The notes under the pieces were generated by a model. It did no database searches, was not told the origin of the DNA, and saw only the letters and a list, made by a program, of their open reading frames with translations. Below are positions 8,294 to 25,917 of a DNA stretch of 34,209 nt, piece by piece; position 1 is the first letter of the stretch, and each line of letters starts with the position of its first letter. The translations under genes were made by a program, and so were the position numbers. The stretch comes from Kiritimatiellia bacterium (GTDB lineage: Bacteria; Verrucomicrobiota; Kiritimatiellia; RFP12; UBA1067): NCBI GenBank assembly GCA_017514235.1, contig JAFWKK010000080.1:1-34209 (forward strand), in the 5' to 3' direction.

Positions 8294-8311
8294 GGCACGT
8301 ATTATACCAAA
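8294..8311 (-). promoter_or_regulatory. Extended -10 promoter of yfcE-htpX operon, leaderless type
   Basis: Minus-strand TTTGG followed by TATAAT (8301-8306) lies 7 nt before the yfcE ATG. The whole 18-nt gap between the EamA gene and yfcE is taken up by it. There is no recognisable -35. Transcription is predicted to start at the A of the ATG. Confidence 0.65.
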
Positions 8312-9205
8312 TCACAGGCAGAGAAGCGCGGTGCCCGCGAGCAGGAGCCCGAGCGCAAGCGCCTTGCGCCCCAGGTTCGTCTCCCGGAAGGCCGCCGCAC
8401 CCAGCACGAACGTCAGTCCGACCGACAGCCTCCGCATCAGCGACGCCACCGAGATCGGCACTCCCGGCACCGCGAGGCCGGTGAAGTACAGCCAGTCAGC
8501 CGCCGCAAGCAGCACTCCGACGAGCGGAATCGTCCAGCGCCAGTCGAACTCCGCGCCCGATGCGCCGTCGCAATGCAGCCGTCGCCACGCGGCCGTGACG
8601 GCGAGGCAGCCTGCGTAAACGGCCACAAGCCCCAGCTGGAAGAACAGCTGAACGCTCTCGACCGGCGCTTCCGCCACCTGGAAGACGTACTTGTCCCAGA
8701 GCGACGACATCGCCGAGCAGCACGCGCCGGCGATTGCGCACCACACGGCGCGGTTGCGCAGGAAGTCTATCCCCTCGTAACGGCCGGCCCACGAGAACAG
8801 CCACAGCCCCGCGAACACCGCGAGCATTCCGGCCGCCTGCGTCGCGGTCGGCACCTCGCCGTAAAGCGCCAGAGCCAGCACGAAGACGAGGGCGGGCGCC
8901 GACGCGCGGATCGGCGTAGCGATCGTTATCGGCAGCGTGCGCAGCGCGCAGAAGGTGAATATCCACGACGTGGCTACGATCCCCGACTTGGCGACGGCGA
9001 GCGCCACGACCCGCCCGTCCGCCGCCGCCAGTGCCTCCGCCAGGCGCCCGGCCGCAGCCAGCGCCGACACGAACGCCGCGCAGCCGAAGCACGTCGAGCA
9101 GAGCAGCACGGGCAGCACCGCGTTGCCGCGCACGCTCGCCTTCTTGGCGAGGTCGTAGAGCGCAAGGAAAACCGCGCTCGAAAGTATCCACATGGTCCAG
9201 CCCAT
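8312..9205 (-). CDS. EamA/DMT superfamily transporter
   Basis: A 297-residue inner-membrane protein with about ten hydrophobic helices in two similar halves, as in drug/metabolite transporters. Typical segments are ATPIRASAPALVFVLALALYGE at the end of the first half, and FVLGAAAFRETNLGRKALALG near the C-terminus (the 'F-x-E' motif before the last helix). The ATG at 9205 sits 7 nt after a TATAAT box, without a ribosome-binding site. It is transcribed divergently from mscS. The substrate cannot be deduced; sugar-phosphate, amino-acid and metabolite exporters share this fold. Confidence 0.85.
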   Translation of the reverse strand: MGWTMWILSSAVFLALYDLAKKASVRGNAVLPVLLCSTCFGCAAFVSALAAAGRLAEALAAADGRVVALAVAKSGIVATSWIFTFCALRTLPITIATPIRASAPALVFVLALALYGEVPTATQAAGMLAVFAGLWLFSWAGRYEGIDFLRNRAVWCAIAGACCSAMSSLWDKYVFQVAEAPVESVQLFFQLGLVAVYAGCLAVTAAWRRLHCDGASGAEFDWRWTIPLVGVLLAAADWLYFTGLAVPGVPISVASLMRRLSVGLTFVLGAAAFRETNLGRKALALGLLLAGTALLCL

Positions 9206-9300
9206 GTACGCTATTATACCACGCCGTCGTGCGCGCCGCCGCCGATTTGTGGTATAATTTACGGAAATGGCCTAAGGCCGTCGTCAGACGGCTCGCGGCC
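9206..9300. promoter_or_regulatory. Divergent promoters for the EamA gene and mscS, with hairpin leader
   Basis: Minus strand: TGG-TATAAT (9213-9218) lies 7 nt before the EamA ATG. Plus strand: TGG-TATAAT (9253-9258) lies 8 nt before an ATG at 9267, but that frame is just Met-Ala-stop. The real mscS start is at 9342, behind GAAGGAG. The plus leader contains a hairpin: GCCGTC (9277-9282) pairs with GACGGC (9287-9292), with flanking self-complementary GGCC copies at 9269-9272 and 9297-9300. No U-run follows, so it is not an intrinsic terminator. It may stabilise or time mscS translation. Confidence 0.55.
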
Positions 9301-9341
9301 AAGGTAAAGAAACAAGGACACAGCGAAGGAGAAAAACAGTC

Positions 9342-10256
9342 ATGCCAGAGACAGCCACGAACGCAACCGCCGCCGCAACCTGCGCGACCACTGCAACCGA
9401 AACGCTGAGCGCAGAGTTCAGCCGTCAGATCTCGGAGGGTCAGGACCTCTGGAACCAGATCGTCACGTGGCTGGCCGAGAAAGGGTTGACGTTCGCAATC
9501 AGGATCCTGTTCGCCGCCGTCATTCTCGTCATCGGCGCGATCGTCATACGCCTCATCGTCGCCGCCGTCGGGCGGGCGATGAAGAAGAGCGGCCGCGGCG
9601 GCACGCTGCTGGACACGTTCGTGTGCAACGTCACCTCAAAGGTCTGCTGGGTGATACTGCTCGTGACGGTGCTTGGCAAGCTCGGCGTCAACGTTGGGCC
9701 GATCGTCGCCGGTCTCGGCGTCACCGGCTTCATACTTGGCTTCGCGTTCCAGGAGTCGCTCGGCAACCTGGCCTCCGGGCTGATGATTGCGATCAACCAG
9801 CCGTTCAAGATCGGCGACTACGTGGTCGTCGCCGGCCTTGAGGGCACGGTGAAGCAGGTTGACATGATGGCCACTGTCCTTTCGACCGGTGACAACAAGA
9901 AGGTCGTGATACCGAACAAGAGCGCCTGGGGCGCTCCGATCACGAACTTCTCGGCGCTCGGCCGTCGCCGTGTCGACATCCAGATCGGCATCGACTATTC
10001 GAGCGACGTGGGCAAGGCGATCAAGATCGCATTGGAGGCCCTTGCGTCCGTCCCTGGCGTGCTGAAGGACCCTGCGCCAGCCGTCTCGGTCGCTTCCCTC
10101 GACGACAGCCAGGTCACGCTCAACATTCGTCCGTGGTCGAACGGCGGCGACTACTGGGCCGTCTACAACGCCACCTGCCAGGCGATCAAGGTCGCCTTCG
10201 AGAACAACGGCGTCAAGATTCCGTTCCCGCAGCTTACAGTCCACATGGACAAGTAA
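9342..10256 (+). CDS. mscS: Small-conductance mechanosensitive channel, MscS family
   Basis: A 304-residue inner-membrane channel that opens under membrane tension and releases solutes in hypo-osmotic shock. After an Ala/Thr-rich N-terminus come hydrophobic helices. The third is pore-lining: VGPIVAGLGVTGFILGFAFQ, with the Gly/Ala packing pattern of MscS TM3, followed by ESLGNLASGLMI. The beta domain (NQPFKIGDYVVVAGLEGTV) and PNKSAWGAPITNFS are standard MscS signatures. Length is close to E. coli MscS (286 residues). The start at 9342 has GGAG upstream, and the promoter is at 9253. It faces the RNA ligase gene tail to tail. Confidence 0.92.
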   Translation: MPETATNATAAATCATTATETLSAEFSRQISEGQDLWNQIVTWLAEKGLTFAIRILFAAVILVIGAIVIRLIVAAVGRAMKKSGRGGTLLDTFVCNVTSKVCWVILLVTVLGKLGVNVGPIVAGLGVTGFILGFAFQESLGNLASGLMIAINQPFKIGDYVVVAGLEGTVKQVDMMATVLSTGDNKKVVIPNKSAWGAPITNFSALGRRRVDIQIGIDYSSDVGKAIKIALEALASVPGVLKDPAPAVSVASLDDSQVTLNIRPWSNGGDYWAVYNATCQAIKVAFENNGVKIPFPQLTVHMDK

Positions 10257-10288
10257 GCCGGCGGCGGCGAAGTCCCCCGCCACTCGTT

Positions 10289-10328
10289 CCTGCGCCTGCG
10301 GGCCGGTCAGGCGCCGCAGGCGCGCAGG
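10289..10328. repeat. Long imperfect inverted repeat between convergent genes
   Basis: CCTGCGCCTGCGG (10289-10301) faces its reverse complement, CCGCAGGCGCGCAGG (10314-10328), with a 2-nt bulge. It spans the mscS 3' side and the last codons of the RNA ligase gene. It could fold in both transcripts and act as a bidirectional barrier, but no T-run follows on either strand. Confidence 0.4.
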
Positions 10329-11623
10329 AACTTCGCATAGCCGGGGTTGGATACGTCGAACCACGCTGGTGCGGACGCGTCGCGGCTGCGGGCGACGATT
10401 CCGTGACGCGGCAGTCCGCGCGCCGTCTTGCCGGACGCAAGGCCAGCGACCGCGTCCATGTCCGCGTAGTCGGTGAAGAGGGCGCAGTCGGTCAGCACGT
10501 CGCGGACCATCGGCACTCCGCATTCCATGCAGAATCTGCGCCGTTCGTCGGTACTCAGCATGCAGTCGTCGTCCAGGTCGAAGATGTCGAACACGCGGAA
10601 GATGTCGCGGCGGTAACCGTCCTCCCATCCGTGGCGGAAGCCCGGCCCGACGACCACGCCTTCCAGCACCAGGTTCCGTCCGCTCTCCAGAACCCGTTCC
10701 GCTATGCCGAGCGAGAGCATCATTCTCCAGAAGTAGCTCCTGTCCGAGAAGCGTATCTCCTGTCCGCCGACGCAGAGGTGGATCGGACGCTTTGGGTCCT
10801 GCAGCCGCGCACAGTAGAGCGACAGGTTGAGCCCGTCCTCCTTCTCCGTCACGTCGAACCTTGTTCCGCGGAACTGCTCGAAATACTCGGGGTGCTCCTC
10901 CAGGTGGGCTAGTTCCGTCACCTTCACGTAGTTGGGCGTCCGTTCGCCGAAGAAGCACATCCTGCCGTTGGCGCACGCCTCTTCGCGCAGCGCCCGGCCG
11001 CGGCTCTCGGACAGTCGCTTCTTGCACCGTTCCGCCGCCATGCTCCGCCTCGCCTCGGCTTCCGCCTTGTGCAAGGCCTTGGCTGCCTGACGGCCCGCCA
11101 GTTCCTTCTGCAGCTCCGCGTCGGTCGTGACGCCTATGAGGTCCGCCACGTCCGTCCCCGTCGGCACGTTCTTGAACTCGGTGAACGGCGCCAGGCTCAG
11201 TATCGCGCCGGGGTTCGCACGGTACGGGCGCAGGGGCGCCTTGAATGCGATGTACGCCTTGCGGATGCCGCCGGGAAAGAAAATCTTCTTGCGCCGGTAT
11301 GGGGTCCGCGCGGCGTCCTTGATGCGCGGATCGTCTCGGACCAGTGTCTCCCGCCTGACGAACAGCACCTTTTCACCGGGGGTGAACAGCCCGCGCTTGA
11401 GGCACACCCGCCAGGACGGGCCGCGTTCGCCTTTGAGTACTGCCAGCGCATGGCGGGCGCTGCGCATCGGCACGTCGATGATTTCGCTTACCGTCATTGG
11501 CGCGACGCGCGGCAGCGGAGGCAGGTCCTTCGGATCCGACTCCAGCAGGCTGCGCACGAACGCCTCGTCGGCGCTTTCTGCCGTCGCGCCTCCCGCGCTC
11601 TCTGTCATCTCGTCTTCTTGCAC
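10307..11623 (-). CDS. ATP-dependent RNA ligase-like protein (DraRnl/Rnl5 type)
   Basis: A 438-residue protein of the nucleotidyltransferase ligase superfamily, which seals or repairs RNA through a lysyl-AMP intermediate. Residues 41-160 resemble the N-terminal OB-fold of Deinococcus RNA ligase (VKLGEK-type GLFTPGEKVLFV, 78-89). The catalytic motif I is KEDG with K261. LEGVVVGPG (320-328) fits motif III with E321, and FRVFDIFDL (342-350) fits motif IIIa. HGIVARS (407-413) aligns with motif IV and WFDVSNPGYAKF (421-432) with motif V, but the usual Glu and Lys there are replaced by His407 and Asp423. A charged Ala/Arg-rich insert (about 168-220) separates the domains. The start is GTG 11623, 7 nt after a -10 box. 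No adjacent repair partner is seen. Confidence 0.8.
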   Translation of the reverse strand: MQEDEMTESAGGATAESADEAFVRSLLESDPKDLPPLPRVAPMTVSEIIDVPMRSARHALAVLKGERGPSWRVCLKRGLFTPGEKVLFVRRETLVRDDPRIKDAARTPYRRKKIFFPGGIRKAYIAFKAPLRPYRANPGAILSLAPFTEFKNVPTGTDVADLIGVTTDAELQKELAGRQAAKALHKAEAEARRSMAAERCKKRLSESRGRALREEACANGRMCFFGERTPNYVKVTELAHLEEHPEYFEQFRGTRFDVTEKEDGLNLSLYCARLQDPKRPIHLCVGGQEIRFSDRSYFWRMMLSLGIAERVLESGRNLVLEGVVVGPGFRHGWEDGYRRDIFRVFDIFDLDDDCMLSTDERRRFCMECGVPMVRDVLTDCALFTDYADMDAVAGLASGKTARGLPRHGIVARSRDASAPAWFDVSNPGYAKFLRACGA

Positions 11624-11702
11624 GGATCGTATTTTACCAAATTTCGGCCCTTGGCGGACGGTCCCCGCATTTCACCGGCGATTTTTGATATAATTAACGC
11701 AA
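11624..11702. promoter_or_regulatory. Divergent -10 elements for the RNA ligase and the sugar-kinase operon
   Basis: Minus strand: TTTGG-TAAAAT (11631-11636) ends 7 nt before the GTG start of the RNA ligase. Plus strand: TGA-TATAAT (11689-11694) serves the operon beginning with the kinase gene. Its predicted start falls near the in-frame TTG at 11703, 21 nt ahead of the ATG with the better ribosome-binding site. Neither has an obvious -35. Confidence 0.55.
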
Positions 11703-11723
11703 TTGCAAAGGGGCAAACGCAAC

Positions 11724-12755
11724 ATGTCGAACAGAACATATGAAGACGATGAGTTAAGGTCCGTGCTAGCCGGGTTCGGGATCAAGGACCCGACCGACAT
11801 AAGCCGCTACGGCTCCGGGCACATCAACGACACGTTCAAGGTCGAGACCGGGGCCGGCACGCGCTACATTCTGCAGCGCGTTACCGATGCCTTCGACAAG
11901 GACATTCTGAAGTCCAACATCTTGCGCGTCACCGGGCACTTGAAGGCGAAGGGCGTGAAGACGCTTGAGGTGCTTGGCTACGAGAACCCTTGGCGCGTGT
12001 ATGCCTTCCTTGAGGGCTATTCTTCCGTCGACGTCATATCCGAGCCGGCCCAGGCGGAGCTGGCTGCAGGCGCGTTCGCGGCGTTCCAGAACGCCCTGGC
12101 CGACTTGCCGGAGCCGAAGCTGCTGCCGGTCATTCCGCGTTTCCACGACACGGTCGACCGCATACGCCTCCTCGACGAGGCGGCGGCGGCGGACGTGAAG
12201 GGCCGCAAGGCGTCCGTAGCGGCGGAGCTGGCGTTTGTGGACGCGCGCCGCGAGGAGGCCGCCAGAATCGTGACGATGATGGCGAAGGGCGAGATTCCAG
12301 AGCGCATCACCCACAACGACACCAAGATCAACAACGTGATGATGGCGCCGGACGGCTCTAACGTCGTCATCGACCTCGATACGACCATGCCCGGCTCGGC
12401 GCTCTATGACTTCGGCGACATGGTGCGCACGTCGTCCGCCGCCGCGGCCGAGGACGAGAAGGACCTCTCGAAGGTCTATTCAAAGAAGGAGTATTTCGAG
12501 GCGCTTGTAAGGGGCTACCTCGCGCAGGCGAAGTTCCTCACCGAGGCGGAGAAGGAGAACCTGGCGTTCTCGGGGCGGCTCATCACGCTCACGATCGGCA
12601 TAAGGTTCCTTACCGACTATCTCGCCGGCGACACTTATTTCCACACCGCCTACGACGGCCACAACCTCGTGCGCTGCCGCACTCAGTTCAAGATGGTGGA
12701 GTCGATGGAGGCGCAGTCGGCGGAGTACGAGGCCATCGTGCGCCGCTACGCATAG
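11724..12755 (+). CDS. Aminoglycoside-phosphotransferase-fold kinase, N-acetylhexosamine kinase-like
   Basis: A 343-residue APH-fold kinase, probably phosphorylating a sugar in the cytoplasm. It has a nucleotide loop GSGHINDTF (30-38), ILQRVTDAF (49-57) and the catalytic loop THNDTKINNVM (196-206) with D199. IDLDT (216-220) carries the metal-binding D217. The GSGHINDTF plus QRV pattern is shared with NahK-type N-acetylhexosamine 1-kinases, hence the call, but substrate is inference. I chose ATG 11724, with AAGGGG 10 nt upstream. An in-frame TTG at 11703, 8 nt after TATAAT, would be a leaderless alternative adding 7 residues. It heads a colinear run: luxS starts 9 nt after its stop. Confidence 0.75.
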   Translation: MSNRTYEDDELRSVLAGFGIKDPTDISRYGSGHINDTFKVETGAGTRYILQRVTDAFDKDILKSNILRVTGHLKAKGVKTLEVLGYENPWRVYAFLEGYSSVDVISEPAQAELAAGAFAAFQNALADLPEPKLLPVIPRFHDTVDRIRLLDEAAAADVKGRKASVAAELAFVDARREEAARIVTMMAKGEIPERITHNDTKINNVMMAPDGSNVVIDLDTTMPGSALYDFGDMVRTSSAAAAEDEKDLSKVYSKKEYFEALVRGYLAQAKFLTEAEKENLAFSGRLITLTIGIRFLTDYLAGDTYFHTAYDGHNLVRCRTQFKMVESMEAQSAEYEAIVRRYA

Positions 12756-12763
12756 GAGCCGCA

Positions 12764-13282
12764 ATGACGGAACTGATTGCAAGTTTCCAGGTTGACCACA
12801 CTCGCATAGCGCCCGGCGTCTACGTCTCGCGCGTCGATGCCGTCGGCGGCGACTTCGTCACGACGTTCGACGTGCGCATGAAGCGTCCGAACGTCGAGCC
12901 TGCGGTGCACCCGAACGCGCTCCACACCATCGAGCACATCGTGGCGACGTACATGAGGAACGACCCCGAGTGGAAGGACAGGATCGTGTACTGGGGGCCG
13001 ATGGGGTGCCTTACCGGCAACTACCTGATCGTGAAGGGGCGGCCGACGCCGCAGGAGATGCTGCCGCTCGTGCTGGCGGCGTTCCGGCACTGCCGCGACT
13101 ACGAGGGCGACGTGCCCGGCGCGACCGAGGTGAACTGCGGCAACTTCAGGCTTCACGATCTCGCTATGGCGAAGTGGGAGGCGGCTCGATTCGTTGAGGC
13201 GCTGGAGCGCGAGCCATGCTTCGACTACCCGGCGTCAGAGAGGCTGACTACGGACAACGGGCGGGTGTTCCACGATTCGTGA
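12764..13282 (+). CDS. luxS: S-ribosylhomocysteine lyase LuxS
   Basis: A 172-residue enzyme that cleaves S-ribosylhomocysteine to homocysteine and DPD, the precursor of autoinducer-2. It is part of the activated methyl cycle. The metal ligands H54 and H58 in HTIEH (54-58) and C125 in TEVNCGNF are present, as are the catalytic E57 and C82 (MGC). Length is slightly above that of typical LuxS (about 155-170). Its ribosome-binding site (GGAG) lies in the 8-nt gap after the kinase gene. A deaminase for SAH-like nucleosides lies downstream in the same run, suggesting linked recycling of SAM products. No pfs-like nucleosidase is seen in the window. Confidence 0.95.
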   Translation: MTELIASFQVDHTRIAPGVYVSRVDAVGGDFVTTFDVRMKRPNVEPAVHPNALHTIEHIVATYMRNDPEWKDRIVYWGPMGCLTGNYLIVKGRPTPQEMLPLVLAAFRHCRDYEGDVPGATEVNCGNFRLHDLAMAKWEAARFVEALEREPCFDYPASERLTTDNGRVFHDS

Positions 13283-13318
13283 CAGCTGGGTTGCGTTTTT
13301 TCAGGAAAGGGGGCTGAG

Positions 13319-14698
13319 ATGGATTTCATGACTGTCGAATGCGGCAAGGCGGCGGCTCTGCTCGTTGCCGCGTCATGCGCTTTCGGTGCGGCGGCGGAGA
13401 CCGTGTTCGTGCAGGACCGCGAGGTGTTCGTGCACGACGTGAACTACGACAAGGGCAAGATTCCGCCCTACGCCCTGGAAGACCCTCTCGTCTTTGCCGA
13501 CGGGCGGAAGGTCGCGACCCCGGCGGACTGGGGCGAGCGTCGCCGCGAGATACTAGGCATCTTCGCAAGGGAGATGTACGGCGAGGAGCCGCCGAAGCCG
13601 GAGGCTGTCGTCACCGAGCTTGCGGACGAAAAGGCCGCCATCGACGGCCATGCGGTGCGTCGCCAGTACAAGATGTGGTTCAGGGCCGACAAGTCGGGCC
13701 CGTGCGTCACATGGATAATGTGGATCCCCAAGTCCGCGAAGAAGCCCGTGCCCGTCATATCCTTCCTCAACTACCGGGGCAACCACGAGCTTGTCCCCGA
13801 CGAGGACATACCGGTTCAGCAAGGCTGGACGCGCGCCGGCGAGCGGTACGGCGTCACCAACCATGCCTCCAGCGCGAAGACGCGCGGCGCGTTGCAGGAC
13901 CCGAACGGGGCCGGAATCTTCCCTGTCGGCATGATCCTGGCGCGTGGCTACGCCGTGATGAGCGCATGCTATTGCGAGGTCTCCCCCGACCCCGAGGCTG
14001 ACGAGAAGGATCCGCAGTTCCAGCAGAACCCGTTCGCCTACACCGGCGTGTTCGGGCTGTGGGGCGAGCGCGACCCGTTGCGCACCGACAACGTCACTTC
14101 GCTCGGCGCATGGGCCTGGGCGCTCTCTCGCGGGCTCGACCTCGCCGAGCGCGTTCCCGAGCTGGACGCCGGAAGGGCGGTGGTTACGGGCTGCTCGCGT
14201 CTCGGCAAGGCGGCGCTCATCGCGGCGGCGAGAGACGACAGGTTCGCGGTCTGCGTGCCGAACCAGACGGGCGGCGGAGGCGTGCCCCTCGCGAAGCGCG
14301 ACTATGGCGAGAACGTCTCGACCGAGAACCGCGCATTCACGCACTGGTACTGCCGCGCATATGCGAAATATGCCGAGGCGCCGTGGAAGACCATGCCGTT
14401 CGACCAGCATCTTTTCGTCGCCTGCATAGCTCCGCGCGCCCTGCTTGTGGAGGGCTACGACTCGCGCTGGTTCGACACGGAGGGCGAGTACCTCGCCGTA
14501 AAGGCTGCAAGTCCCGTGTGGACGTTCCTCGGCAAGGAGGGGATGCCCGACGTCGCCTGGCCCGACGACTTCGACACTTCCGCCATCGGCCGTCACCTCG
14601 GCTACGTGCGCCGCAACCGCAACCACGGCATATCGGCCTACGACTGGACGTGGCTGATGGACTTCGCCGACGGGGTGTTCGGCAAGTGCGCGCGATGA
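13319..14698 (+). CDS. Exported CE15-like glucuronoyl esterase (alpha/beta hydrolase)
   Basis: A 459-residue secreted esterase of the CE15 type, whose characterised members cut ester bonds between lignin and glucuronoyl xylan. The signal peptide covers about residues 1-26 (AAALLVAASCAFGAAAE). The nucleophile is S293 in GCSRLGKAAL (291-300). NQTGGGGVPLAKRDYGE (315-331) is the conserved oxyanion and acid region of bacterial members, and the likely catalytic histidine is H436 in RNHGISAYDW. Start ATG 13319 follows AGGAAAGGGGG. It sits between luxS and housekeeping genes, an unexpected place for a plant-cell-wall enzyme. The ester substrate is inferred from the family. Confidence 0.85.
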   Translation: MDFMTVECGKAAALLVAASCAFGAAAETVFVQDREVFVHDVNYDKGKIPPYALEDPLVFADGRKVATPADWGERRREILGIFAREMYGEEPPKPEAVVTELADEKAAIDGHAVRRQYKMWFRADKSGPCVTWIMWIPKSAKKPVPVISFLNYRGNHELVPDEDIPVQQGWTRAGERYGVTNHASSAKTRGALQDPNGAGIFPVGMILARGYAVMSACYCEVSPDPEADEKDPQFQQNPFAYTGVFGLWGERDPLRTDNVTSLGAWAWALSRGLDLAERVPELDAGRAVVTGCSRLGKAALIAAARDDRFAVCVPNQTGGGGVPLAKRDYGENVSTENRAFTHWYCRAYAKYAEAPWKTMPFDQHLFVACIAPRALLVEGYDSRWFDTEGEYLAVKAASPVWTFLGKEGMPDVAWPDDFDTSAIGRHLGYVRRNRNHGISAYDWTWLMDFADGVFGKCAR

Positions 14699-14729
14699 GG
14701 AATTCAGCGACGAAGAAGGGAGTCTTGGC

Positions 14730-15014
14730 TTGGGTCTGTTCGTCGAGACGCCGGAGGGCGTGATCTTGAACGTGCGGGCGCAGCCGCGCTCGTCGCGCGC
14801 CGGCATCGACGGCGCGATAGGCGACGCCGTGCGCGTGCGCATACGCTGTGCGCCCGTCGACGGCAAGGCCAACAAGGAGCTGGTCGAGACGCTGGCAGAC
14901 GCCTTTGGCGTGCCGAAAAGCTCCGTCGCTTTCAAAAGCGGCGAAACGTCGAAGACGAAGCGCATTCTTTTGCGCGGCGTCGGAGCGGCCGACGCAGAAA
15001 GGGTCCTGAAGTGA
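14730..15014 (+). CDS. DUF167 (YggU-like) family protein
   Basis: A 94-residue conserved protein of unknown function. The DUF167 signatures are visible: ILNVRAQPRSSRAGI (12-26), VRVRIRCAPVDGKANKELV (33-51) and VAFKSGETSKTKRILL (65-80). The start is TTG 14730, which has GGGAG 7 nt upstream and gives the family-typical N-terminus; no ATG is available. Its stop overlaps the GTG start of coaB, so the two are coupled. Confidence 0.85.
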   Translation: MGLFVETPEGVILNVRAQPRSSRAGIDGAIGDAVRVRIRCAPVDGKANKELVETLADAFGVPKSSVAFKSGETSKTKRILLRGVGAADAERVLK

Positions 15015-17349: not shown

Positions 17350-17379
17350 TTGACTTCCAATACCTTATTATGGTAGAAT
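17350..17379 (+). promoter_or_regulatory. Promoter of the AAA+/DUF4143 ATPase gene
   Basis: TTGACT (17350-17355), 18 bp, then TAGAAT (17374-17379) preceded by TGG. The -10 ends 7 nt before the ATG at 17387, so a leaderless transcript is predicted. One of the few promoters here with a good -35. Confidence 0.65.
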
Positions 17380-17386: not shown

Positions 17387-18556
17387 ATGAAAGCCATAAA
17401 AAGATGCATACCGCCATACGAAGAAAACTTCTTTCTTCTTGGTCCTCGCGGAACTGGCAAGACCACGTGGCTCAAGGCGCAGTACAGCGACGCCGTTGTA
17501 ATCGACTTGCTTAAGCCAGATGTTTTCAGGGCTTTCCAGACAAGGCCCGAGAGCCTTGCCGATGTCGTGAAAGGCAATGCGCAGGCGCACTGCTTTGTGC
17601 TTGACGAAATTCAGAAAGTGCCTGAATTGCTCAGTGTTGTGCATTCGCTTATAGAAGAGCATCTGGGACTGCAGTTCATATTGACAGGATCCAGCGCCCG
17701 CAAGATAAGGCGTACGGGCGCGGATCTGCTGGCCGGGCGGGCTGTACGAAAGACAATGCACCCCTTTATTGCGAGCGAATTGGGGGAGGACTTTTCTCTG
17801 GATTATGCTTTGCGGTATGGCACGCTTCCGGTGGTTTGCGGTACGCGCAGAAAAGATGCCGCACTCTCGGCCTACATAGATTTGTATCTTCGCGAGGAAA
17901 TTCAGCAAGAGGGTCTTGTCAGAACGCTTGCTCCTTTTACGCGATTTCTTGAATCGGTCTCGTTTTCGCATGGTTCTCAACTTGTTTCAAGCGCGATAGC
18001 CAGAGATTGCGGTGTCGGGAGGACGACGGTCGACGGCTACCTGAAGATATTGTTCGATCTGATGATAGCCTCGACGCTGCCGGTTTTTTCAAAAAGGGCG
18101 AAGCGGGCCATGGCGGTCACGGCTAAATTCTATTTCTTTGATACCGGCGTATTCCGCACATTGCGCCCAAAGGGGCCGCTTGACCGTCCAGATGAAATCG
18201 ACGGTGCCGCGCTTGAGGGGTTGGTGTTTCAGCATCTGACGGCGTACCTCGATTATTCATCGCGGCGAGAGAGCCTTTATTGCTGGCGAACCGCCGAAGG
18301 CAAGGAAGTGGATTTTGTCATATACGACGACAATGATTTTGTTGCGCTTGAAGTCAAGAACGCCGCACGACTCGATTCACGGGATTTTGCCGGTCTCAAG
18401 GCGTTTCAATCAGACTATCCGGAAGCGAGAGCCGTGCTGCTCTACAGAGGCGAGACGCAATATATGCATGGGAATGTGCTTGTCGTCCCTGTCGCCAAAT
18501 ATCTTTCCAATCTCGTGCCAGGCAGTCGGTCGCCGGACGTAGCCTGGCGCAGATGA
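17387..18556 (+). CDS. AAA+ ATPase with C-terminal DUF4143 domain
   Basis: A 389-residue protein of the large AAA_14/DUF4143 family. Walker A is GPRGTGKTT (19-27) and Walker B is CFVLDEIQKVP (69-79); LTGSSARK follows as the sensor-like strand. A winged-helix-like middle part contains ARDCGVGRTTVDGYLKIL. The C-terminal domain has KEVDFVI and ALEVKNA, the D...ExK pattern of a PD-(D/E)xK nuclease-like fold. Function in the family is unsettled; such genes are common in accessory DNA of anaerobes. GC content is visibly lower than in neighbours. It lies in opposite orientation inside a decayed efflux operon, which suggests insertion. A broken relative is at 32722. Confidence 0.85.
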   Translation: MKAIKRCIPPYEENFFLLGPRGTGKTTWLKAQYSDAVVIDLLKPDVFRAFQTRPESLADVVKGNAQAHCFVLDEIQKVPELLSVVHSLIEEHLGLQFILTGSSARKIRRTGADLLAGRAVRKTMHPFIASELGEDFSLDYALRYGTLPVVCGTRRKDAALSAYIDLYLREEIQQEGLVRTLAPFTRFLESVSFSHGSQLVSSAIARDCGVGRTTVDGYLKILFDLMIASTLPVFSKRAKRAMAVTAKFYFFDTGVFRTLRPKGPLDRPDEIDGAALEGLVFQHLTAYLDYSSRRESLYCWRTAEGKEVDFVIYDDNDFVALEVKNAARLDSRDFAGLKAFQSDYPEARAVLLYRGETQYMHGNVLVVPVAKYLSNLVPGSRSPDVAWRR

Positions 18557-19222: not shown

Positions 19223-19226
19223 TGGA

Positions 19227-19664: not shown

Positions 19665-19679
19665 AGTTCGGATAATACT

Positions 19680-19716
19680 AATTCGAATTGTATCATGTTG
19701 CCCTTGCGTGAGTCAA
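19680..19716 (-). promoter_or_regulatory. marR promoter with palindromic operator candidate
   Basis: On the minus strand TTGACT (19711-19716) is followed after 18 bp by TACAAT (19687-19692). The perfect 10-bp palindrome AATTCGAATT (19680-19689) overlaps the -10 and the predicted start site. This is where an autorepressing MarR dimer would block initiation. MarR binding itself is inferred. Confidence 0.5.
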
Positions 19717-19780
19717 CACCGTTGCCTCCTACACTCTTATAATAAGTCGATCATGAATTTTCGGGCTGTGAGGCGGAGAA

Positions 19781-19804
19781 ATTTTTGGTATAATTTCCAA
19801 CATA
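19781..19804 (+). promoter_or_regulatory. Extended -10 promoter of the divergent-PAP2 gene
   Basis: ATTTTTGG followed by TATAAT (19789-19794), 10 nt before the ATG at 19805. No -35 at the expected distance and no ribosome-binding site in the short leader. Confidence 0.55.
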
Positions 19805-20302
19805 ATGTTTGCAACTGGAATAATCCATCACGTCAATGCGCTGGAGATAATCCGGCATCCGTGGTTCATGTCCGCGTTCATCGCCGGCGGCTGCGCACAG
19901 CTTATCAAGTTCATCAGCGACTCGTTGCGAGCGAAGCGTCCGTGCTGGGGGTCGCTGATCACGACCGGCGGCATGCCGAGCGGCCATTCCGCTGTGGTCT
20001 CGTCGCTGGCGTTCGCCGTCGGGTTTACGGACGGGTTCGACGCGCCTTACGCCATGATCGCGGTCGGGCTCGGCCTGATCGTGCTGGTAGATGCCGTTAC
20101 GCTCCGCTACGAGGCGGGCGAGCACGCGAAGCTGCTGAACCGCATAATCCGCCACCTGAACACAGTCAACGAAGAGGACCGCATCGAGGCGGAGCGCCTG
20201 CAGGAGCGGCTCGGCCATACCGTCCGCGAGATGCTTGCCGGCGTGGCTTTCGGCGGAGTCATAGCGTTTGTCGTATGCGGCATATGGGATTTCTGGAAGT
20301 AA
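19805..20302 (+). CDS. Divergent PAP2 family membrane protein
   Basis: A 165-residue membrane protein of the divergent-PAP2 (DUF212) family. GGMPSGHSA (55-63) is the phosphatase-like motif and AGEHAKLLN (104-112) with LQERLGHTVREMLAG is the family C-terminal signature. Hydrophobic segments lie at about 20-37, 65-95 and 140-160. The family resembles acid phosphatases of the PAP2 type, but its reaction is not established; lipid phosphate hydrolysis is a guess from the motif. It is followed 16 nt later by the next gene, with a shared reading direction. Confidence 0.85.
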   Translation: MFATGIIHHVNALEIIRHPWFMSAFIAGGCAQLIKFISDSLRAKRPCWGSLITTGGMPSGHSAVVSSLAFAVGFTDGFDAPYAMIAVGLGLIVLVDAVTLRYEAGEHAKLLNRIIRHLNTVNEEDRIEAERLQERLGHTVREMLAGVAFGGVIAFVVCGIWDFWK

Positions 20303-20318
20303 CCGGCAAGGAGTTGGC

Positions 20319-21467
20319 ATGTTGCGTCGGATTCTTCATTACCTGATTCTTGCGACGGTGCTGGTCGGCGTGCCGACGGCGTGCGCCGTGATCGGCGGTT
20401 CCGACGAAATCCTTGCGGGCCTGAAGCAGTTTCCGCCGCGCACCGAGGACTGGGGGTTCCATCCCGAGAAGCTGTGGAACGTGCGGCATCCGTTCAACTG
20501 GGCTTGGTTCATATGCATGACGGGGTTGACGGCCGCCAGCCTTTTCCCGCTCGTCCGTCGCGGCCTGCGGGGGCTGCGTACCGCTCCGCGCCCCGCCGCG
20601 CGGCGCTGTCCCTTTCCCCTCTGGGGCTGGGCCGGGCTTGCGCTGCTGGCCGCCTCGTGGGTGGTGACGTGGAACAGGTTCGAGTGGATCCGTCCGCACC
20701 AGGTGCTGCTGTCGTACTTCCCGATCTGGATGGGCTACATCGTAACGGTGAACGCGCTGGTCAAGTGGCGGTCGGGGAGGTGCCCGATGACGGACCACCC
20801 GTTCGTCTACGCGCTGACCTTCCCGGCGTCGTCGCTGTTCTGGTGGTTCTTCGAGTACCTGAACCGGTTCGTGTGGAACTGGTATTACCTTGGCATCAGC
20901 GAGCTGTCGGCCTATACCTACACCGTATACGCGACGCTGTGCTTCGCCTCCGTGCTGCCTGCGGTCTACGCGACCGCGGAGTTCCTGGGCACGTTCCGGT
21001 TCTTCGACGACAGGAACTACGAAGGCATGGGCTGGCGCCCCGACGTGCGCAGCGTCCGCGCCAAGCTATTCCTTCTGGCCCTGTCGGCCCTGGGCCTGGC
21101 AGGCATCGTGTTCTGCCCCGACTACACGTACATGCTGCTCTGGATATCGCCGCTGATGGTATTCGTGCTGGTGCAGGTCGTGCTGGGCGAGCCATGCCTT
21201 CTGGACCGGCTTAAGACCGGCTCCTGGGGGCTTGTGTTCCGGTTCTCGACAGCGGCGCTCGTCTGCGGGTTTTGCTGGGAGACGTGGAACTATTACTCGC
21301 TCGCGAAGTGGGTTTATGCGGTTCCGTGGGTGCACCGCTGGCAGATATGGGAGATGCCGCTCATCGGCTTCGCGGGCTACCTGCCGTTCGGCGTGGAGTG
21401 CGCCGCCGTCACGTTCTGGCTGTATGACGCGTTCGGCCTCGGGTCGGACTGCGAGCAGCGCCACTAG
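20319..21467 (+). CDS. Polytopic membrane protein of unknown function
   Basis: A 382-residue protein I do not recognise. About ten hydrophobic segments are visible, for example at 5-22, 60-80, 98-117, 125-147, 160-182 and 250-268. Aromatic residues are abundant near helix ends (SSLFWWFFEYLNRFVWNWYY). The ATG at 20319 has a near-ideal ribosome-binding site (AAGGAG, 5 nt spacing) and follows the PAP2-like gene by 16 nt, so the two are probably co-transcribed. A lipid-related role would fit that pairing but is speculative. It faces the tRNA gene tail to tail, only 4 nt away. Confidence 0.75.
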   Translation: MLRRILHYLILATVLVGVPTACAVIGGSDEILAGLKQFPPRTEDWGFHPEKLWNVRHPFNWAWFICMTGLTAASLFPLVRRGLRGLRTAPRPAARRCPFPLWGWAGLALLAASWVVTWNRFEWIRPHQVLLSYFPIWMGYIVTVNALVKWRSGRCPMTDHPFVYALTFPASSLFWWFFEYLNRFVWNWYYLGISELSAYTYTVYATLCFASVLPAVYATAEFLGTFRFFDDRNYEGMGWRPDVRSVRAKLFLLALSALGLAGIVFCPDYTYMLLWISPLMVFVLVQVVLGEPCLLDRLKTGSWGLVFRFSTAALVCGFCWETWNYYSLAKWVYAVPWVHRWQIWEMPLIGFAGYLPFGVECAAVTFWLYDAFGLGSDCEQRH

Positions 21468-21471
21468 GGTC

Positions 21472-21557
21472 TGGAGCCGAGGGTCGGATTCGAACCGACG
21501 TGTCCTTGCGGATCCTGATTACAAATCAGGCGCAGTCAACCACTGTGCCACCCCGGC
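21472..21557 (-). tRNA. tRNA-Thr (anticodon UGU) with long variable arm
   Basis: The minus strand folds as an 86-nt cloverleaf. The acceptor stem GCCGGGG pairs with CCTCGGC (one G-U), discriminator U73, encoded CCA. The D-arm has only 3 bp (GCA/TGC). The anticodon stem CCTGA/TCAGG encloses loop TTTGTAA, giving UGU. The T-arm is GTCGG-TTCGAAT-CCGAC. The variable region is 14 nt (ATCCGCAAGGACAC) and forms its own hairpin, UCC-GCAA-GGA. Such an arm is normal for Ser, Leu and Tyr tRNAs but not Thr. G1-C72, C2-G71 and the G35-U36 anticodon bases agree with threonine identity. Confidence 0.9.
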
Positions 21558-21572
21558 GGGCAGATGGCGGAT

Positions 21573-21612
21573 AGTATACCATATCTCGGACGATTTTGGT
21601 ATAATACCTCGC
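21573..21612. promoter_or_regulatory. Divergent promoters of tRNA-Thr and tyrS
   Basis: Minus strand: TGG-TATACT (21573-21578) lies 15 nt before the tRNA 5' end. Plus strand: TTTTGG-TATAAT (21600-21605) ends 7 nt before the tyrS ATG, again predicting a leaderless mRNA. No T-box-like leader is possible for tyrS with this spacing. Confidence 0.6.
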
Positions 21613-22857
21613 ATGAGACTGATAGACGAACTGAAGGCCCGCGGACTCGTCGAGGCGCTGACCGATCCTGGCGTCGAGGCTGCGCTGGAGCGTCCGATGA
21701 CGGTTTACTGCGGTTTCGATCCGTCCGCCCGGTCGCTGCAGGCCGGCAATCTCGTGTCGATAATGGTGCTGAGGCGCTTCCAGCAGGCGGGGCACCGGGT
21801 CATCGCGCTTGTCGGCGGTGCGACCGGGCTGATAGGCGACCCGAGCGGCAAGTCGGCCGAGCGCAACATGCTCACGGTCGAACAGGTGGCGGAGAACAAG
21901 GCCGGCATACGCGAGAACCTTTCGCGCATACTAGACTTCGACGGGCCGAACGCGGCCGTGATGGTTGACAACTACGACTGGTACAAAGGCACGTCGGCCA
22001 TCGAGTTCCTGCGTGACATCGCGGTGAACTTCCGCGTGCCGCAGATGCTCGCCAAGGAGTCGGTGAAGAAGCGCCTTGAGGCGAGCGAGGGAGCGCTCAC
22101 GTTCACCGAGTTCAGCTACCAGATCCTGCAGGGCAACGACTTCCTGCACCTATACGACGCGTACGGCTGCCGCCTTGAGGTCGGCGGTGCCGACCAGTGG
22201 GGCAACATCACCGCCGGCACCGACCTCGTGCGGCGGCTCCGCGGCGAGACGGCCTACGGGCTGACGTTCCCGCTCCTGCTCGACTCCGCCGGGCGCAAGT
22301 TCGGCAAGAGCGAGGGCAACGCGCTTTTCATGGACGCGTCGATGACGCCGGTCTTCGACTGGTACCAGTACTTCATGCGCGCGGCGGACGCGGACGTGAT
22401 CCGCTACCTGAAGGTCTTCTCCATGCGCTCGCTCGACGAGATCGCCGCGCTTGAGGCGGAGATGCGCGCGCACCCGGAGGCGCGCGTTCCGCAGAAGGCG
22501 CTTGCCGAGGAGCTGACGAGGCTCGTGCACGGCGAGGACGGGCTTCGCCAGGCCCAGGAGGCGACCGAGGCGCTGTACGCGAAGAAGACGTCCGCCGACG
22601 TCGCGAAGGCCAGCGACGTGCCGAGCGCGCAGGTGCGGCGCGAGGACTGCGTCGGCAAGACGGTGTTCGCGGTCGCCGCCGCCGCCGGGATGTTCTCGTC
22701 CAACGGCGAGGCGCGGCGCATGGCGCGGCAGGGCGGCCTTTCGCTCAACGACGCGCGGGTGGACGACTCGCGCGTATTCGCGGAGTCCGACATCACAGCC
22801 GAGGGCGTGGCCGTGCTGCGCAGCGGGAAGAAGAACTACTTCGTGCTCAGGTTTTGA
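21613..22857 (+). CDS. tyrS: Tyrosyl-tRNA synthetase
   Basis: A 414-residue class I synthetase charging tRNA-Tyr. CGFDPSARSL (33-42), VGGATGLIGDPSGKS (67-81), the tyrosine-pocket DQWGN (194-198) and the KMSKS-type loop KFGKS (229-233) are clear. The C-terminal S4-like RNA-binding domain spans about 345-414. The HIGH-equivalent reads Q43-A-G-N46, so both canonical histidines are replaced. Asn at the second position is common in TyrRS, but Gln at the first is unusual. The start at 21613 is set by the promoter spacing. Its stop overlaps the TTG start of the lptF/G-like gene. Confidence 0.93.
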   Translation: MRLIDELKARGLVEALTDPGVEAALERPMTVYCGFDPSARSLQAGNLVSIMVLRRFQQAGHRVIALVGGATGLIGDPSGKSAERNMLTVEQVAENKAGIRENLSRILDFDGPNAAVMVDNYDWYKGTSAIEFLRDIAVNFRVPQMLAKESVKKRLEASEGALTFTEFSYQILQGNDFLHLYDAYGCRLEVGGADQWGNITAGTDLVRRLRGETAYGLTFPLLLDSAGRKFGKSEGNALFMDASMTPVFDWYQYFMRAADADVIRYLKVFSMRSLDEIAALEAEMRAHPEARVPQKALAEELTRLVHGEDGLRQAQEATEALYAKKTSADVAKASDVPSAQVRREDCVGKTVFAVAAAAGMFSSNGEARRMARQGGLSLNDARVDDSRVFAESDITAEGVAVLRSGKKNYFVLRF

Positions 22858-23972
22858 AAACGATCGAGAGATACGTCTTCGGCTCGTTCCTCTCGAGCTT
22901 CCTGCTCGCGTTCCTGGTGCTTTCGTTCGTGCTGACGATCGCCTTGCTCGTGCAGATCGTCGACCTCGTCATGGACGGCGTGCCGATGCCGCTCGTCGGC
23001 GAGTTCTGCATGGTGTCGCTGCCGGAGACGCTCCAGTGGTCCATGCCGCTCGCCCTGCTCGTGAGCGCCATACTCGTGTTCTCGCGCCTCTCCGCCGACA
23101 GCGAGATAGCGGCGATGCGCGCGTGCGGCATCAACCTCCTGTCGGTGGTGCGCTGGCCCGTCGCCTTCGGCGTGCTTTGCGCAATGCTCGGGCTGTGGGT
23201 GAACAACGAGATCGTGCCGCGCGGCCACGAGGTCCGGCGCACGCTCAAGGCCAAGGTGTCGGTGAAGGCCGGGCTCGGCGTGCTCGAGCCGGGGCGTCTC
23301 ATCTCCGACTTCCCGAAGGTGAAGCTCTACTTCGGCCGCAAGGAGGGCAACTGGCTCTACGACCTCGTGGTGCTGGACTACTCGAACCCGAAGTTCGACC
23401 GCCTGATCACGGCCGAGAAGGCGCTCGTCACGCAGTCCGGGGCGGACGTCGACTTCGAGCTCTACCAGATGACGGTGGATCCCGTCGACGAGGAGCACCG
23501 CACGATGGTGCGGGCCAGCCGCTTCCCCTACTCGATGAAGAACGTGATCAAGAGGTCGCACTACACAAAGCGCGTCAAGGACTTCCGCTTCTCCGAAATG
23601 CTGGCGCAGATACGCGCCCGCCGCGCGGAGATCGCCGCCGTTTCCGGAACGGGCGCGGTGGAGGACGCCAAGCGCAACTTCGCCCGCCGCGAGCTGAGCG
23701 AGCATCTGGTAGAGCTTAACAAGCGATTCGTCTTCGCGATGGCTTCCGTCTGCTTCGTGCTTGTCGGCATACCGCTCGGAATCAGGTCGCAGCGCAAGGA
23801 ATCGACGATCGGAATGGCGATAGCGCTGGCCGTCTCGCTCGGATACTACGTCGTCATAATACTTATGCTGTCCTGCGAGAGGTTCTACTGGGCGCACCCG
23901 GAGATCCTCATGTGGCTGCCGGTGGCGGCGTGCCTCGTGCTGGCGGCGAAGCTTATGCGAAGGCACCTTTGA
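22854..23972 (+). CDS. LptF/LptG family LPS export permease
   Basis: A 372-residue inner-membrane permease of the YjgP/YjgQ family, which with LptB extracts lipopolysaccharide for transport to the outer membrane. Three N-terminal helices (about 8-35, 50-75 and 95-115) carry PLALLVSAILVFSRLSADSE, then IAAMRACGINLLSV, the family signature. A large periplasmic domain (about 120-285) precedes C-terminal helices (FAMASVCFVLVGIPLGIRSQ and after). The start is TTG 22854, overlapping the tyrS stop as TTGA. Whether it is LptF or LptG cannot be told; the partner is not in the window. LpxA follows 16 nt later. Confidence 0.88.
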   Translation: MKTIERYVFGSFLSSFLLAFLVLSFVLTIALLVQIVDLVMDGVPMPLVGEFCMVSLPETLQWSMPLALLVSAILVFSRLSADSEIAAMRACGINLLSVVRWPVAFGVLCAMLGLWVNNEIVPRGHEVRRTLKAKVSVKAGLGVLEPGRLISDFPKVKLYFGRKEGNWLYDLVVLDYSNPKFDRLITAEKALVTQSGADVDFELYQMTVDPVDEEHRTMVRASRFPYSMKNVIKRSHYTKRVKDFRFSEMLAQIRARRAEIAAVSGTGAVEDAKRNFARRELSEHLVELNKRFVFAMASVCFVLVGIPLGIRSQRKESTIGMAIALAVSLGYYVVIILMLSCERFYWAHPEILMWLPVAACLVLAAKLMRRHL

Positions 23973-23988
23973 GAACGGAGGTCGGAAG

Positions 23989-24768
23989 ATGGCGAAGATA
24001 CACCCAACTGCCATAGTCGAGGACGGAGCCGCCCTTGGCGCGGACGTCGAGATCGGCCCGTACGCGCATGTCGGCGCGAACGTCAGGATCGGCGACGGAA
24101 CGGTCGTGAAGCAGGGAGCGATAATAGACGGTCACACCACCATCGGCTCGCAGTGCCAGATATTCCCGTACGCCTGCGTCGGCATGAAGACGCAGGACCT
24201 GAAGTACAAGGACGGCTCGGTCAGCTACGTCGAGATCGGCGACCGCACGGTGATACGCGAGTTCGCCACGGTGCATCTCGGCACGGCGGACGGGGAAAGG
24301 ACGGTGATCGGCAGCGACTGCCTGTTCATGTGCTACTGCCACGCGGCCCACGGGGTGATTCTCGGCGACCACGTGATATGCTCCAACTCCGTCCAGCTCG
24401 CCGGCGACGTGCACATACAGGACTGGGCGATAGTCGGCGGCGTCTGCGCGGCGCACCAGTTCTGCACGATCGGCAAGCACGCGATGATCGGCGGCTGCTC
24501 CAAGATACGCCAGGACGTGCCGCCCTACATGCTTTGCGACATGCACGAGAGCTCGCTCAGGGCCATAGGCGTCAACATCGTCGGGCTTACGCGGCGCGGC
24601 TTCCGCAAGGAGGTAATACAGGCCCTTAAGGAGGCCCATCGCTTCATATACCGCTCCGACCTGAACCGCTCGCAGGCGCTGGAGCGCGTCGAGAACGACG
24701 TCGAGCAGTTCGACGAGGTGCGCGACCTCGTGGCGTTCTACCGCAACTCGCACAGGGGAGTGGCGTGA
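23989..24768 (+). CDS. lpxA: UDP-N-acetylglucosamine acyltransferase LpxA
   Basis: A 259-residue enzyme for the first step of lipid A synthesis, acylating UDP-GlcNAc from acyl-ACP. The left-handed beta-helix is visible as hexapeptide repeats through residues 1-185. MKTQDLKYKDG (66-76) matches the conserved PQDLKY region. H118 and H121 in CHAAHGVILGD correspond to the H122/H125 catalytic pair of E. coli LpxA. The C-terminal helical domain contains RAIGVNIVGLTRRGF. GGAGG 7 nt before ATG 23989 supports the start. Overlaps murF by GTGA. Confidence 0.95.
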   Translation: MAKIHPTAIVEDGAALGADVEIGPYAHVGANVRIGDGTVVKQGAIIDGHTTIGSQCQIFPYACVGMKTQDLKYKDGSVSYVEIGDRTVIREFATVHLGTADGERTVIGSDCLFMCYCHAAHGVILGDHVICSNSVQLAGDVHIQDWAIVGGVCAAHQFCTIGKHAMIGGCSKIRQDVPPYMLCDMHESSLRAIGVNIVGLTRRGFRKEVIQALKEAHRFIYRSDLNRSQALERVENDVEQFDEVRDLVAFYRNSHRGVA

Positions 24769-25868
24769 GGTACACGTTCGACTCCCGCGAAGTGAGGCCC
24801 GGCATGGGCTTCGTCGCGCTGAAGGGCGAGAAGGCCGACGGCCGCGACTTCATTCCGCAGGCTCTGGCCGCCGGAGCGGCCGATGTCATCGACGGGCTGG
24901 ACGAACTTCAGCGCCGCGCCCGCGAGCGCCGCCGCGCCCTGAAGGCGAAGGTCGTGGGGCTCACCGGCTCCGCCGGCAAGACCACGACCAAGGAGTTCCT
25001 CAAGGCGTTCCTCGCCTGCCCCGGCACGGAAGGGAACTTCAACAACCACATCGGACTGCCGCTGACCATCCTCAACTGCCCAGACGACGCGGACTTCCTT
25101 GTCCTTGAGATGGGAACGAACCACCCCGGCGAAATCAGGGCGCTCTGCGACATCGCCGAGCCGGACGTCGGGGTCATCGCCTCGATAGGCACGGCGCACA
25201 TCGAGTTCTTCGGGACTCAGGAGGGGATAGCCGAGGAGAAGGGCGCTCTCTTCGCGTCCACAAGGGATTTCAACGTCGTCTCCTCCGCCTGCAACCGGCT
25301 CGACGTGCTCCGCCGCCTTTCCAAGCCGCGGCTGATCGAAGTCGACGTGTCGGCAGGCGACCTCGAGTGTCCGTTGCCCGGGGCGCACAACCGCTCCAAC
25401 ATGATGCTGGCGTATGCGACGGCCCGCGAGCTCGGCGTCACGCACGGCGAGTGCGCGGCCCGGCTCGGCGACTTCGCGCTCCCGGGGGCGCGCTGGCGCG
25501 TCTCGGAGAAGTGGGGCGCGACGTTCATAGACGACACCTACAACGCCAACCCCGACTCGATGGTCGCCGCGCTCGACGCTTTCGCGGCCACGCCGTGCGA
25601 CGGCCGGCGCATCGCCGTGCTGGGCGACATGTTCGAGCTTGGCGACAGGTCGCTCGAGCTGCACAAGATGGTGTTCGGCCACGCGATGTCGCTCGGCATA
25701 CCGCTCGTGATAGGCGTCGGCGAGATGTCGTCGCAGTGCCTGTGCCACCTGGCGTACAAGAGCGTCGCCGCCCTGAAGAAGCGCTTCCGCGTCGACGTCT
25801 CCGCCGGCGACCTCGTGCTGATGAAGGCGTCGCACGCGATGCGTCTCGGGGACCTCCTGGCGGATTGA
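24765..25868 (+). CDS. murF: UDP-N-acetylmuramoyl-tripeptide-D-alanyl-D-alanine ligase MurF
   Basis: A 367-residue Mur ligase adding D-Ala-D-Ala to the peptidoglycan precursor in the cytoplasm. It has the uridine-binding DSREVRPGMGFVALKGEK (6-23), P-loop GSAGKTTT (68-75), GNFNNHIGLPLTIL, EMGTNHPGEI and ASIGTAHIEFFG. DDTYNANPDSM and LGDMFELG mark the later domains. At 367 residues it is shorter than the usual 440-460, with almost nothing before the DSR motif and a compact C-terminus; no break in frame is seen. The start is GTG 24765, overlapping the lpxA stop. Confidence 0.93.
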   Translation: MRYTFDSREVRPGMGFVALKGEKADGRDFIPQALAAGAADVIDGLDELQRRARERRRALKAKVVGLTGSAGKTTTKEFLKAFLACPGTEGNFNNHIGLPLTILNCPDDADFLVLEMGTNHPGEIRALCDIAEPDVGVIASIGTAHIEFFGTQEGIAEEKGALFASTRDFNVVSSACNRLDVLRRLSKPRLIEVDVSAGDLECPLPGAHNRSNMMLAYATARELGVTHGECAARLGDFALPGARWRVSEKWGATFIDDTYNANPDSMVAALDAFAATPCDGRRIAVLGDMFELGDRSLELHKMVFGHAMSLGIPLVIGVGEMSSQCLCHLAYKSVAALKKRFRVDVSAGDLVLMKASHAMRLGDLLAD

Positions 25869-25881
25869 CCTTGCAATTGCG

Positions 25882-25911
25882 TTGCGCGGGGCGGCGGGGA
25901 AATGATATAAT
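25882..25911 (+). promoter_or_regulatory. Promoter inside the envelope gene run
   Basis: TTGCGC (25882-25887), 18 bp, TATAAT (25906-25911), preceded by TGA. The -10 ends 6 nt before the ATG at 25918. It gives the genes from 25918 to 32536 a start separate from the tyrS promoter. Confidence 0.6.
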
Positions 25912-25917
25912 TCGCGC

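Follow-up and report, generated by a model that had tools for sequence, protein, structure and literature searches.

We studied a 34,209-base stretch of DNA (the window in the following; GC 0.63) from a Kiritimatiellia bacterium whose genome comprises 3.96 Mb on 82 contigs with about 61% GC. The investigation concerns a box resembling an extended -10 promoter element that recurs a few nucleotides (nt) before start codons in this window, and the leaderless messenger RNAs (mRNAs) that such a placement would produce. Judged by tyrS, the closest relative (97%) is a Kiritimatiellae metagenome-assembled genome (MAG) from goat ileum. Most of the tyrS relatives that follow come from gut MAGs, which carry the labels Kiritimatiellae, Verrucomicrobia, Lentisphaerae or uncultured bacterium.

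Eight boxes had been named in an earlier sequence-only reading of the window, and all of them are present with the spacings it gave. On the minus strand, TATAAT is found 7 nt before the ATG of a yfcE-type phosphoesterase gene (box 8301-8306; gene 7778-8293, Metallophos_2) and 7 nt before the ATG of an EamA gene (box 9213-9218; gene 8312-9205, Pfam EamA). By its position yfcE is no first gene: its box falls within the 18 nt that separate it from the preceding EamA gene. On the same strand, TAAAAT stands 7 nt before the GTG of an RNA ligase gene (box 11631-11636; gene 10307-11623, RNA_ligase). The start codon of this gene is uncertain, as an in-frame ATG (11608) 15 nt downstream of the GTG is favoured by the coding score. 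On the plus strand, TAGAAT precedes the ATG of an AAA_14/DUF4143 gene (box 17374-17379; gene 17387-18556) and TATAAT that of tyrS (box 21600-21605; gene 21613-22857), again at 7 nt. All five boxes have TGG directly in front, as does the TATAAT at 19789-19794 (plus), which lies 10 nt before the ATG of a DUF212 (divergent PAP2) gene (19805-20302) with a predicted leader of about 2-3 nt. The TATAAT at 25906-25911 (plus) has TGA in front and ends 6 nt before the ATG of a gene (25918-26727) without a Pfam match at E 1e-5. The eighth box, at 97-102 (minus), also follows TGA and ends 7 nt before an ATG (87-89) whose gene runs off the window edge. Here position and spacing were read correctly, while the box itself is only TACCAT, with two mismatches and weak when taken alone; the label of an insertion sequence (IS) transposase is that of the sequence-only reading. 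We left this box out of every count. TG occupies the extended position in all eight boxes.

In total, TGN-TATAAT with at most one mismatch was found 8 times at 6-8 nt before ATG, GTG or TTG on both strands of the window, whereas 200 dinucleotide shuffles gave 0.125 such sites on average and never more than 2. Six of these sites belong to the boxes listed above, and two (9253, 11689) precede genes with leaders. The named genes had also been described as lacking a ribosome-binding site. This is correct for 7/8 of them, which show no Shine-Dalgarno (SD) match of more than 3 nt to the complement AAAGGAGGTGA between positions -20 and -4; the IS gene has the match GTGA within that range. For contrast, the downstream gene htpX carries GAGGAGG, in agreement with the earlier description, and the ATG at 6085 carries AAGGAGG.

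The enrichment of the motif at start-codon spacing extends over the whole genome, as had been anticipated: TATAAT-N6-8-ATG occurs 221 times, compared to 10 occurrences of the reversed pattern and 62 at N16-18. To relate boxes to gene classes, we used a sample of 40 stretches of 20 kb plus the window, i.e., 834,209 bases (72,000 of them N) or about one fifth of the genome. Our own hexamer-score caller yielded 530 genes, 521 of which were classed by their upstream neighbour into 58 divergent genes, 103 co-directional genes with gaps of 25-59 nt, 158 co-directional genes with gaps of 60 nt or more, and 202 internal genes. As plausible starts we accepted the called start or a nearby start with almost equal coding score, with ATG candidates sorted first. 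A box 5-10 nt before a plausible start was found for 71/521 genes, while 22 have one at the control spacing of 15-20 nt. By class, these are 27/58 divergent genes, 19/103 and 18/158 genes with short and long gaps, respectively, and 7/202 internal genes (divergent vs. internal, Fisher p 1.5e-14), which bears out the proposed contrast between first and internal genes. Restricted to called starts and to boxes with one mismatch at 5-9 nt, 39/521 genes remain (16/58 divergent, 13/103 gap 25-59, 8/158 gap 60+, 2/202 internal). The spacings run from 6 to 10 nt and 7 nt is the most common (25/71 genes). ATG is the start codon in 62/71 of these genes vs. 293/450 of the others; this enrichment is partly built in, because the plausible-start rule sorted ATG candidates first.

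The sequence-only reading had gone further and suspected a genome-wide rule for first genes. This does not hold. An extended box stands at leaderless spacing in 24 of the 58 divergent genes, elsewhere within 150 nt in 19, and is missing in 15; in addition, the window contains two leadered genes with such promoters. The leaderless-spaced box is a common option for first genes and not a rule. For 50 of the 119 TGNTATAAT sites in the sample, the distance to a plausible start is 5-10 nt; it is 11-16 nt for 1 site and 17-150 nt for 43. Among 69 boxes without a gene start, 10 have an ATG at 6-8 nt where about 5 are expected (from about 1.7 ATG per position elsewhere), which may or may not reflect leaderless small open reading frames, upstream ones included; several of the 10 are plain genes missed by the caller. 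As a separate observation, L005 (G000:C28, ~82261-82313 and 92884-92943) comprises back-to-back divergent pairs in which both genes carry boxes of the leaderless type although the intergenic stretch they share is very short.

Next, we examined the composition of the box. In an alignment of the 71 sites on the box, T occupies -5 in 61 sites and -3 in 65, whereas G occupies -2 in 65 and -1 in 48, i.e., the consensus of the leaderless set is T-N-TGG-TATAAT. Since these sites had been picked by their similarity to TATAAT, we also counted every TANNNT located 6-8 nt before a called start (n=39). Among these, 27 read TATAAT and 31 follow a TG at the extended position. Within the whole sample, 119/163 TATAAT carry the extended TG, compared to 0/15 in 180 kb of G101, a relative that lacks the trait. 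A -35 element is not apparent in the leaderless set, where 14/71 sites have 4 or more matches to TTGACA (spacers 15-19) vs. 9.9 in shuffles. For leadered promoters the respective values are 14/51 vs. 7.6, and 11/30 vs. 4.7 in a cleaned set. Given about twice the shuffled number of -35-like hexamers, a -35 may help at leadered promoters, and the two promoter sets may differ in this respect.

The leaderless-like genes are also poor in SD sequences. A match of 5 or more nt was observed for 2/71 of them vs. 91/195 other internal genes, with 8% and 14%, respectively, for shuffled upstream sequences. Loss of the anti-SD sequence was considered as a cause and rejected for the lineage, as GGATCACCTCCTTT is intact in 6/6 complete 16S ribosomal RNA genes of the family. 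Only that of G203 represents the genus of the window's genome, whose own assembly holds no 16S, and the other five come from genera with little or no signal. With an intact anti-SD, SD-led and leaderless initiation should coexist. Loss of the ribosomal protein bS21 was rejected as well, since bS21 is encoded in 140/146 genomes of the class, including the window's genome and all 14 genomes drawn from its family.

To place the transcription start relative to the box, we relied on leadered promoters. A calibration of a CA start on 51 such promoters was discarded, because it was contaminated by start codons 5-10 nt past the box (plausible starts at 10 sites and some start codon at a further 11). 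The clean set (n=30), from which any site with ATG, GTG or TTG at 5-10 nt had been removed, shows C at position 7 past the box in 13 promoters (p 0.016) and A at position 8 in 16 (p 0.003) and at position 9 in 19. By construction, the start codon of a leaderless gene begins at position 8 when the spacing is 7 and at position 9 when it is 8. Given this A peak, transcription of the leaderless genes is predicted to start on the A of the ATG or 1-2 bases from it. A pyrimidine precedes the start codon in 39/50 genes with spacing 6-8, compared to 88/195 internal and 123/255 other genes.

The spacing is furthermore conserved, or was re-established, among orthologues. For tyrS, 41 loci were compared (L021-L062 without L047, whose match begins at a contig edge). 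An extended box is located 7-9 nt before the ATG in 16 of them and 14-48 nt away in 9, while 16 have none. The best 30 matches each were taken for yfcE and the 25918 gene; L149 was dropped from the latter, as its match begins at residue 13. For yfcE, the box lies at 6-8 nt, within the range of 6-9 nt used for both genes, in 7/30 loci and 27-29 nt away in 2. For the 25918 gene, it lies at 6-9 nt in 6/29 loci and 27-29 nt away in 1. The window's genome is included in both counts, and the remaining orthologues of the two genes mostly show an SD-like sequence or no box. For all three genes the distance between box and start was thus retained or re-made while the flanks diverged.

On a broader scale, the signal recurs across genera and is missing in others. 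Measured against the reversed pattern in 57 genomes of the family, it is strong in genera g1, g2, g7, g155, g159 and g160 (our own numbering). Genera g4, g5, g153, g156 and g157 are intermediate, and the signal is weak or missing in g3, g6, g152, g154, g158 and g161-g163. In a survey of 288 genomes of the phylum, N6-8 was compared with N16-18 spacing; 53 genomes were summed in four groups and 235 were read by eye. The sums are 1612/614 for family f1 (14 genomes, 10 with a ratio of 2 or more), 339/74 for f2 (10/10 genomes), 135/103 for f3+f4 (1/7) and 924/674 for genus g56 (3/22). A few of the unsummed genomes exceed a ratio of 2 as well, e.g., G110, G165 and G066. Counted by genes with a box at 5-10 nt (control 15-20 nt in brackets), G374 has 12/98 (5), G373 12/72 (3) and G101 2/85 (3). 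G101 belongs to the same family as the window's genome and has a GC of 0.637; its low count next to those of G374 and G373 makes an artefact of GC content or of the gene caller unlikely.

We infer that the box is read by the housekeeping sigma factor RpoD. The RpoD of this genome (contig C9, 151,214-153,263) has kept the motifs of regions 3.0 and 4.2, which look intact, including the region 3.0 motif RTIRIPVHMIET, whose H and E read the TG in E. coli. Further RpoD matches in the window's genome are limited to two short ones (30 and 24 bits); separately, we note that the relatives G084, G282, G339 and G344 encode an additional RpoD-like sigma factor (319-351 bits). A change in the sigma factor was considered as the cause of the trait and rejected. 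We compared 29 RpoD sequences of the family, 13 of them from signal-bearing genera, 11 from genera lacking the signal and 5 from intermediate ones. Regions 2.3-3.0 and 4.2 are near-identical among them. This includes G101, which has no TGNTATAAT site in the 180 kb investigated (C66:1-180000) despite its near-identical recognition regions. Of the 14 diagnostic columns, region 3.1 contains one and the region 3.2 finger three (GDFIPD vs. GDFIED), while the others fall into N-terminal and non-conserved parts. The finger was rejected as the determinant: f2/g8 has a strong signal with GDFIED, and f4/g10 has GDFLPD in 2/3 genomes yet low counts (13/2, 10/6, 6/4). A full RpoD was available for 29/30 genomes in this check, and the finger was read in 23 of these 29.

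The two leadered promoters of the same type in the window are located at 9253-9258 (plus, TGGTATAAT), upstream of an MscS gene that starts at 9342 with the SD AAGGAG, and at 11689-11694 (plus, TGATATAAT), upstream of an APH-family gene at 11724 with the SD AAAGGGG. An ATG 8 nt past the MscS box opens a frame of two codons (ATG GCC TAA, 9267-9275), which is possibly a leaderless start-stop upstream frame, or else chance. Similarly, a TTG 8 nt past the 11689 box (region 11703-11724) shares its reading frame with the SD-led ATG at 11724; the APH-family gene possibly has two alternative starts from one promoter. On the minus strand, TGG-TATACT at 21573-21578 faces tRNA-Thr (21472-21557, minus); a start 8 nt past this box would put the 5' end of the transcript about 8 nt upstream of the tRNA. 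Finally, a second TATAAT without TG (19738-19743) lies 51 nt upstream of the 19789 box and 9 nt before an ATG at 19753, which is out of frame with the DUF212 gene.

We interpret the boxes as follows. Housekeeping-sigma promoters of the extended -10 type (T-N-TGG-TATAAT), with no -35 detectable in the leaderless set, would be placed such that transcription starts on the start codon or 0-3 nt before it. The resulting mRNAs would be leaderless, and ribosomes would start at the 5'-terminal AUG without SD pairing. The same genome would use SD-led initiation for many operon-internal and leadered genes. The leaderless transcripts predicted by the sequence-only reading are well supported at the level of sequence, by the spacing, the lack of SD sequences, the contrast between first and internal genes, the conservation among orthologues and the A peak at 8-9 nt. 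That leaderless mRNAs from TNTGGTATAAT promoters are widespread in this bacterium is, in our estimation, very probable. In many of its relatives, too, the box stands near enough to the start codons of many genes for their mRNAs to be expected to begin there or a few bases away.

Several observations weigh against this interpretation. The deficit at 11-16 nt is not significant (1 site seen vs. about 4.2 expected, p 0.08), and in G374 2/24 sites fall into this range. Seven of the 202 internal genes score too, and the 22 genes at control spacing show that boxes also occur at other distances. The gene caller is our own and simple, and the plausible-start rule favours starts near a box, which is visible in the drop from 71 to 39 genes when only called starts are used. 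The start calibration is weaker in the clean set of 30 than in the first set and does not separate position 8 from 9. Finally, the leaderless mRNAs are predicted from sequence.

Among the alternatives, very short leaders of 2-10 nt survive best, i.e., transcription starting a few nt upstream of the ATG rather than truly leaderless mRNAs. Promoters often start at several positions, the spacings of 6-10 nt let us expect leaders of up to about 3 nt, and positions 8 and 9 are not told apart by the clean calibration. On the other hand, the mode is exactly 7 nt (25/71) and the A peak falls on positions 8-9 past the box and not earlier. We consider this explanation unlikely. We regard it as quite improbable that the promoters are ordinary ones and that translation begins at an SD-led start further inside the gene, the annotated start being an artefact. 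The in-frame ATG of the RNA ligase 15 nt downstream of its GTG would fit this, as would the approximate nature of the start calls in the sample; however, divergent orthologues of tyrS, yfcE and the 25918 gene share the residue at which the protein begins, and several of these orthologues have an SD-like sequence; the ATGs of the three genes therefore look real. Scarcely credible is a T/A-rich box that acts as a translation signal or avoids structure instead of being a promoter: SD-poor genes commonly have A/T-rich sequence ahead of their starts, but leadered genes have the same T-N-TG-N-TATAAT at a greater upstream distance and with the same preferences in its flanks, operon-internal genes carry the motif about 6 times less often (7/202 vs. 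64/319), and the extended TG is present on 119/163 TATAAT of the sample.

Building on leaderless transcription from the extended -10 box, we tentatively propose a wider view, which we hold to be possible but far from assured. In this order of gut Kiritimatiellae, promoter and translation start may have merged to form a single portable module (T-N-TGG-TATAAT-N7-ATG) about 21 bp long, which alone would drive both transcription and translation, would fit into gaps of 18-60 bp and would be gained and lost gene by gene between species. Leaders would then measure 0-3 nt or else be of sufficient length to hold an SD, and selection would act against lengths in between.

If confirmed, a large uncultured gut lineage would join the bacterial groups rich in leaderless mRNAs. 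Relatives of the same family with and without the trait, with near-identical sigma recognition regions, would allow for studying its gain and loss. For annotation, start calls that rely on SD sequences may misplace starts in the Kiritimatiellae lineage. Our literature search returned no report of leaderless genes in Kiritimatiellae among the titles and abstract openings it covered, with subscription journals and preprints outside its coverage. One of the hits, PMC10434106, does no more than cite a publication on a gene finder.

Extended -10 promoters are known from Gram-positive bacteria as TRTGN, where the lack of a -35 can be made up for by a TG placed one base ahead of the -10. The TG at this position is common to both; here, it is part of T-N-TGG and stands hard by the start codon in many genes. 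Akkermansia muciniphila belongs to the same GTDB phylum as the window's genome. Therein, 10% of the starts mapped by Cappable-seq are leaderless, and -35 and -10 signals are given for all four species analysed, according to Ettwiller et al. 2016 (PMC4782308). The Akkermansia data are experimental and include a -35, whereas ours are sequence-derived and the leaderless set has no -35 above shuffles. In mycobacteria, nearly one quarter of the transcripts are leaderless and a 5' ATG or GTG suffices, as summarized by Shell et al. 2015 (PMC4633059). That system belongs to another phylum, and its translation was tested while ours is predicted. An anti-SD table in PMC10783764 gives Kiritimatiellae a value of 63, and the passages of that article considered here do not mention leaderless genes there.

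A further close parallel is provided by the TA-led or leaderless genes of Zheng et al. 2011 (PMC3160421), which have a -10-like box about 10-12 bp before the start and are found across bacteria. In the excerpts of that study considered here, Actinobacteria and Deinococcus-Thermus exceed 20% leaderless genes, and the groups named for its 207 genomes with leaderless genes do not include Verrucomicrobiota or Kiritimatiellota, one genome being unclassified. The genes studied here resemble TA-led genes as described there in that a -10-like box stands near the start, an SD is lacking, SD-led genes occur alongside and orthologues switch the mode. In the same excerpts, high-GC groups show TAnnnT and a TG peak is found in several low-GC genomes, e.g., Lactococcus. 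Our genome of about 61% GC differs from these high-GC groups by its full TATAAT with TG and would, if confirmed, depart from the published trend of a degenerate TAnnnT box before leaderless genes in high-GC genomes. Leaderless genes are a known architecture, and what is new is the lineage, the full extended -10 at about 61% GC and its presence or absence by genus.

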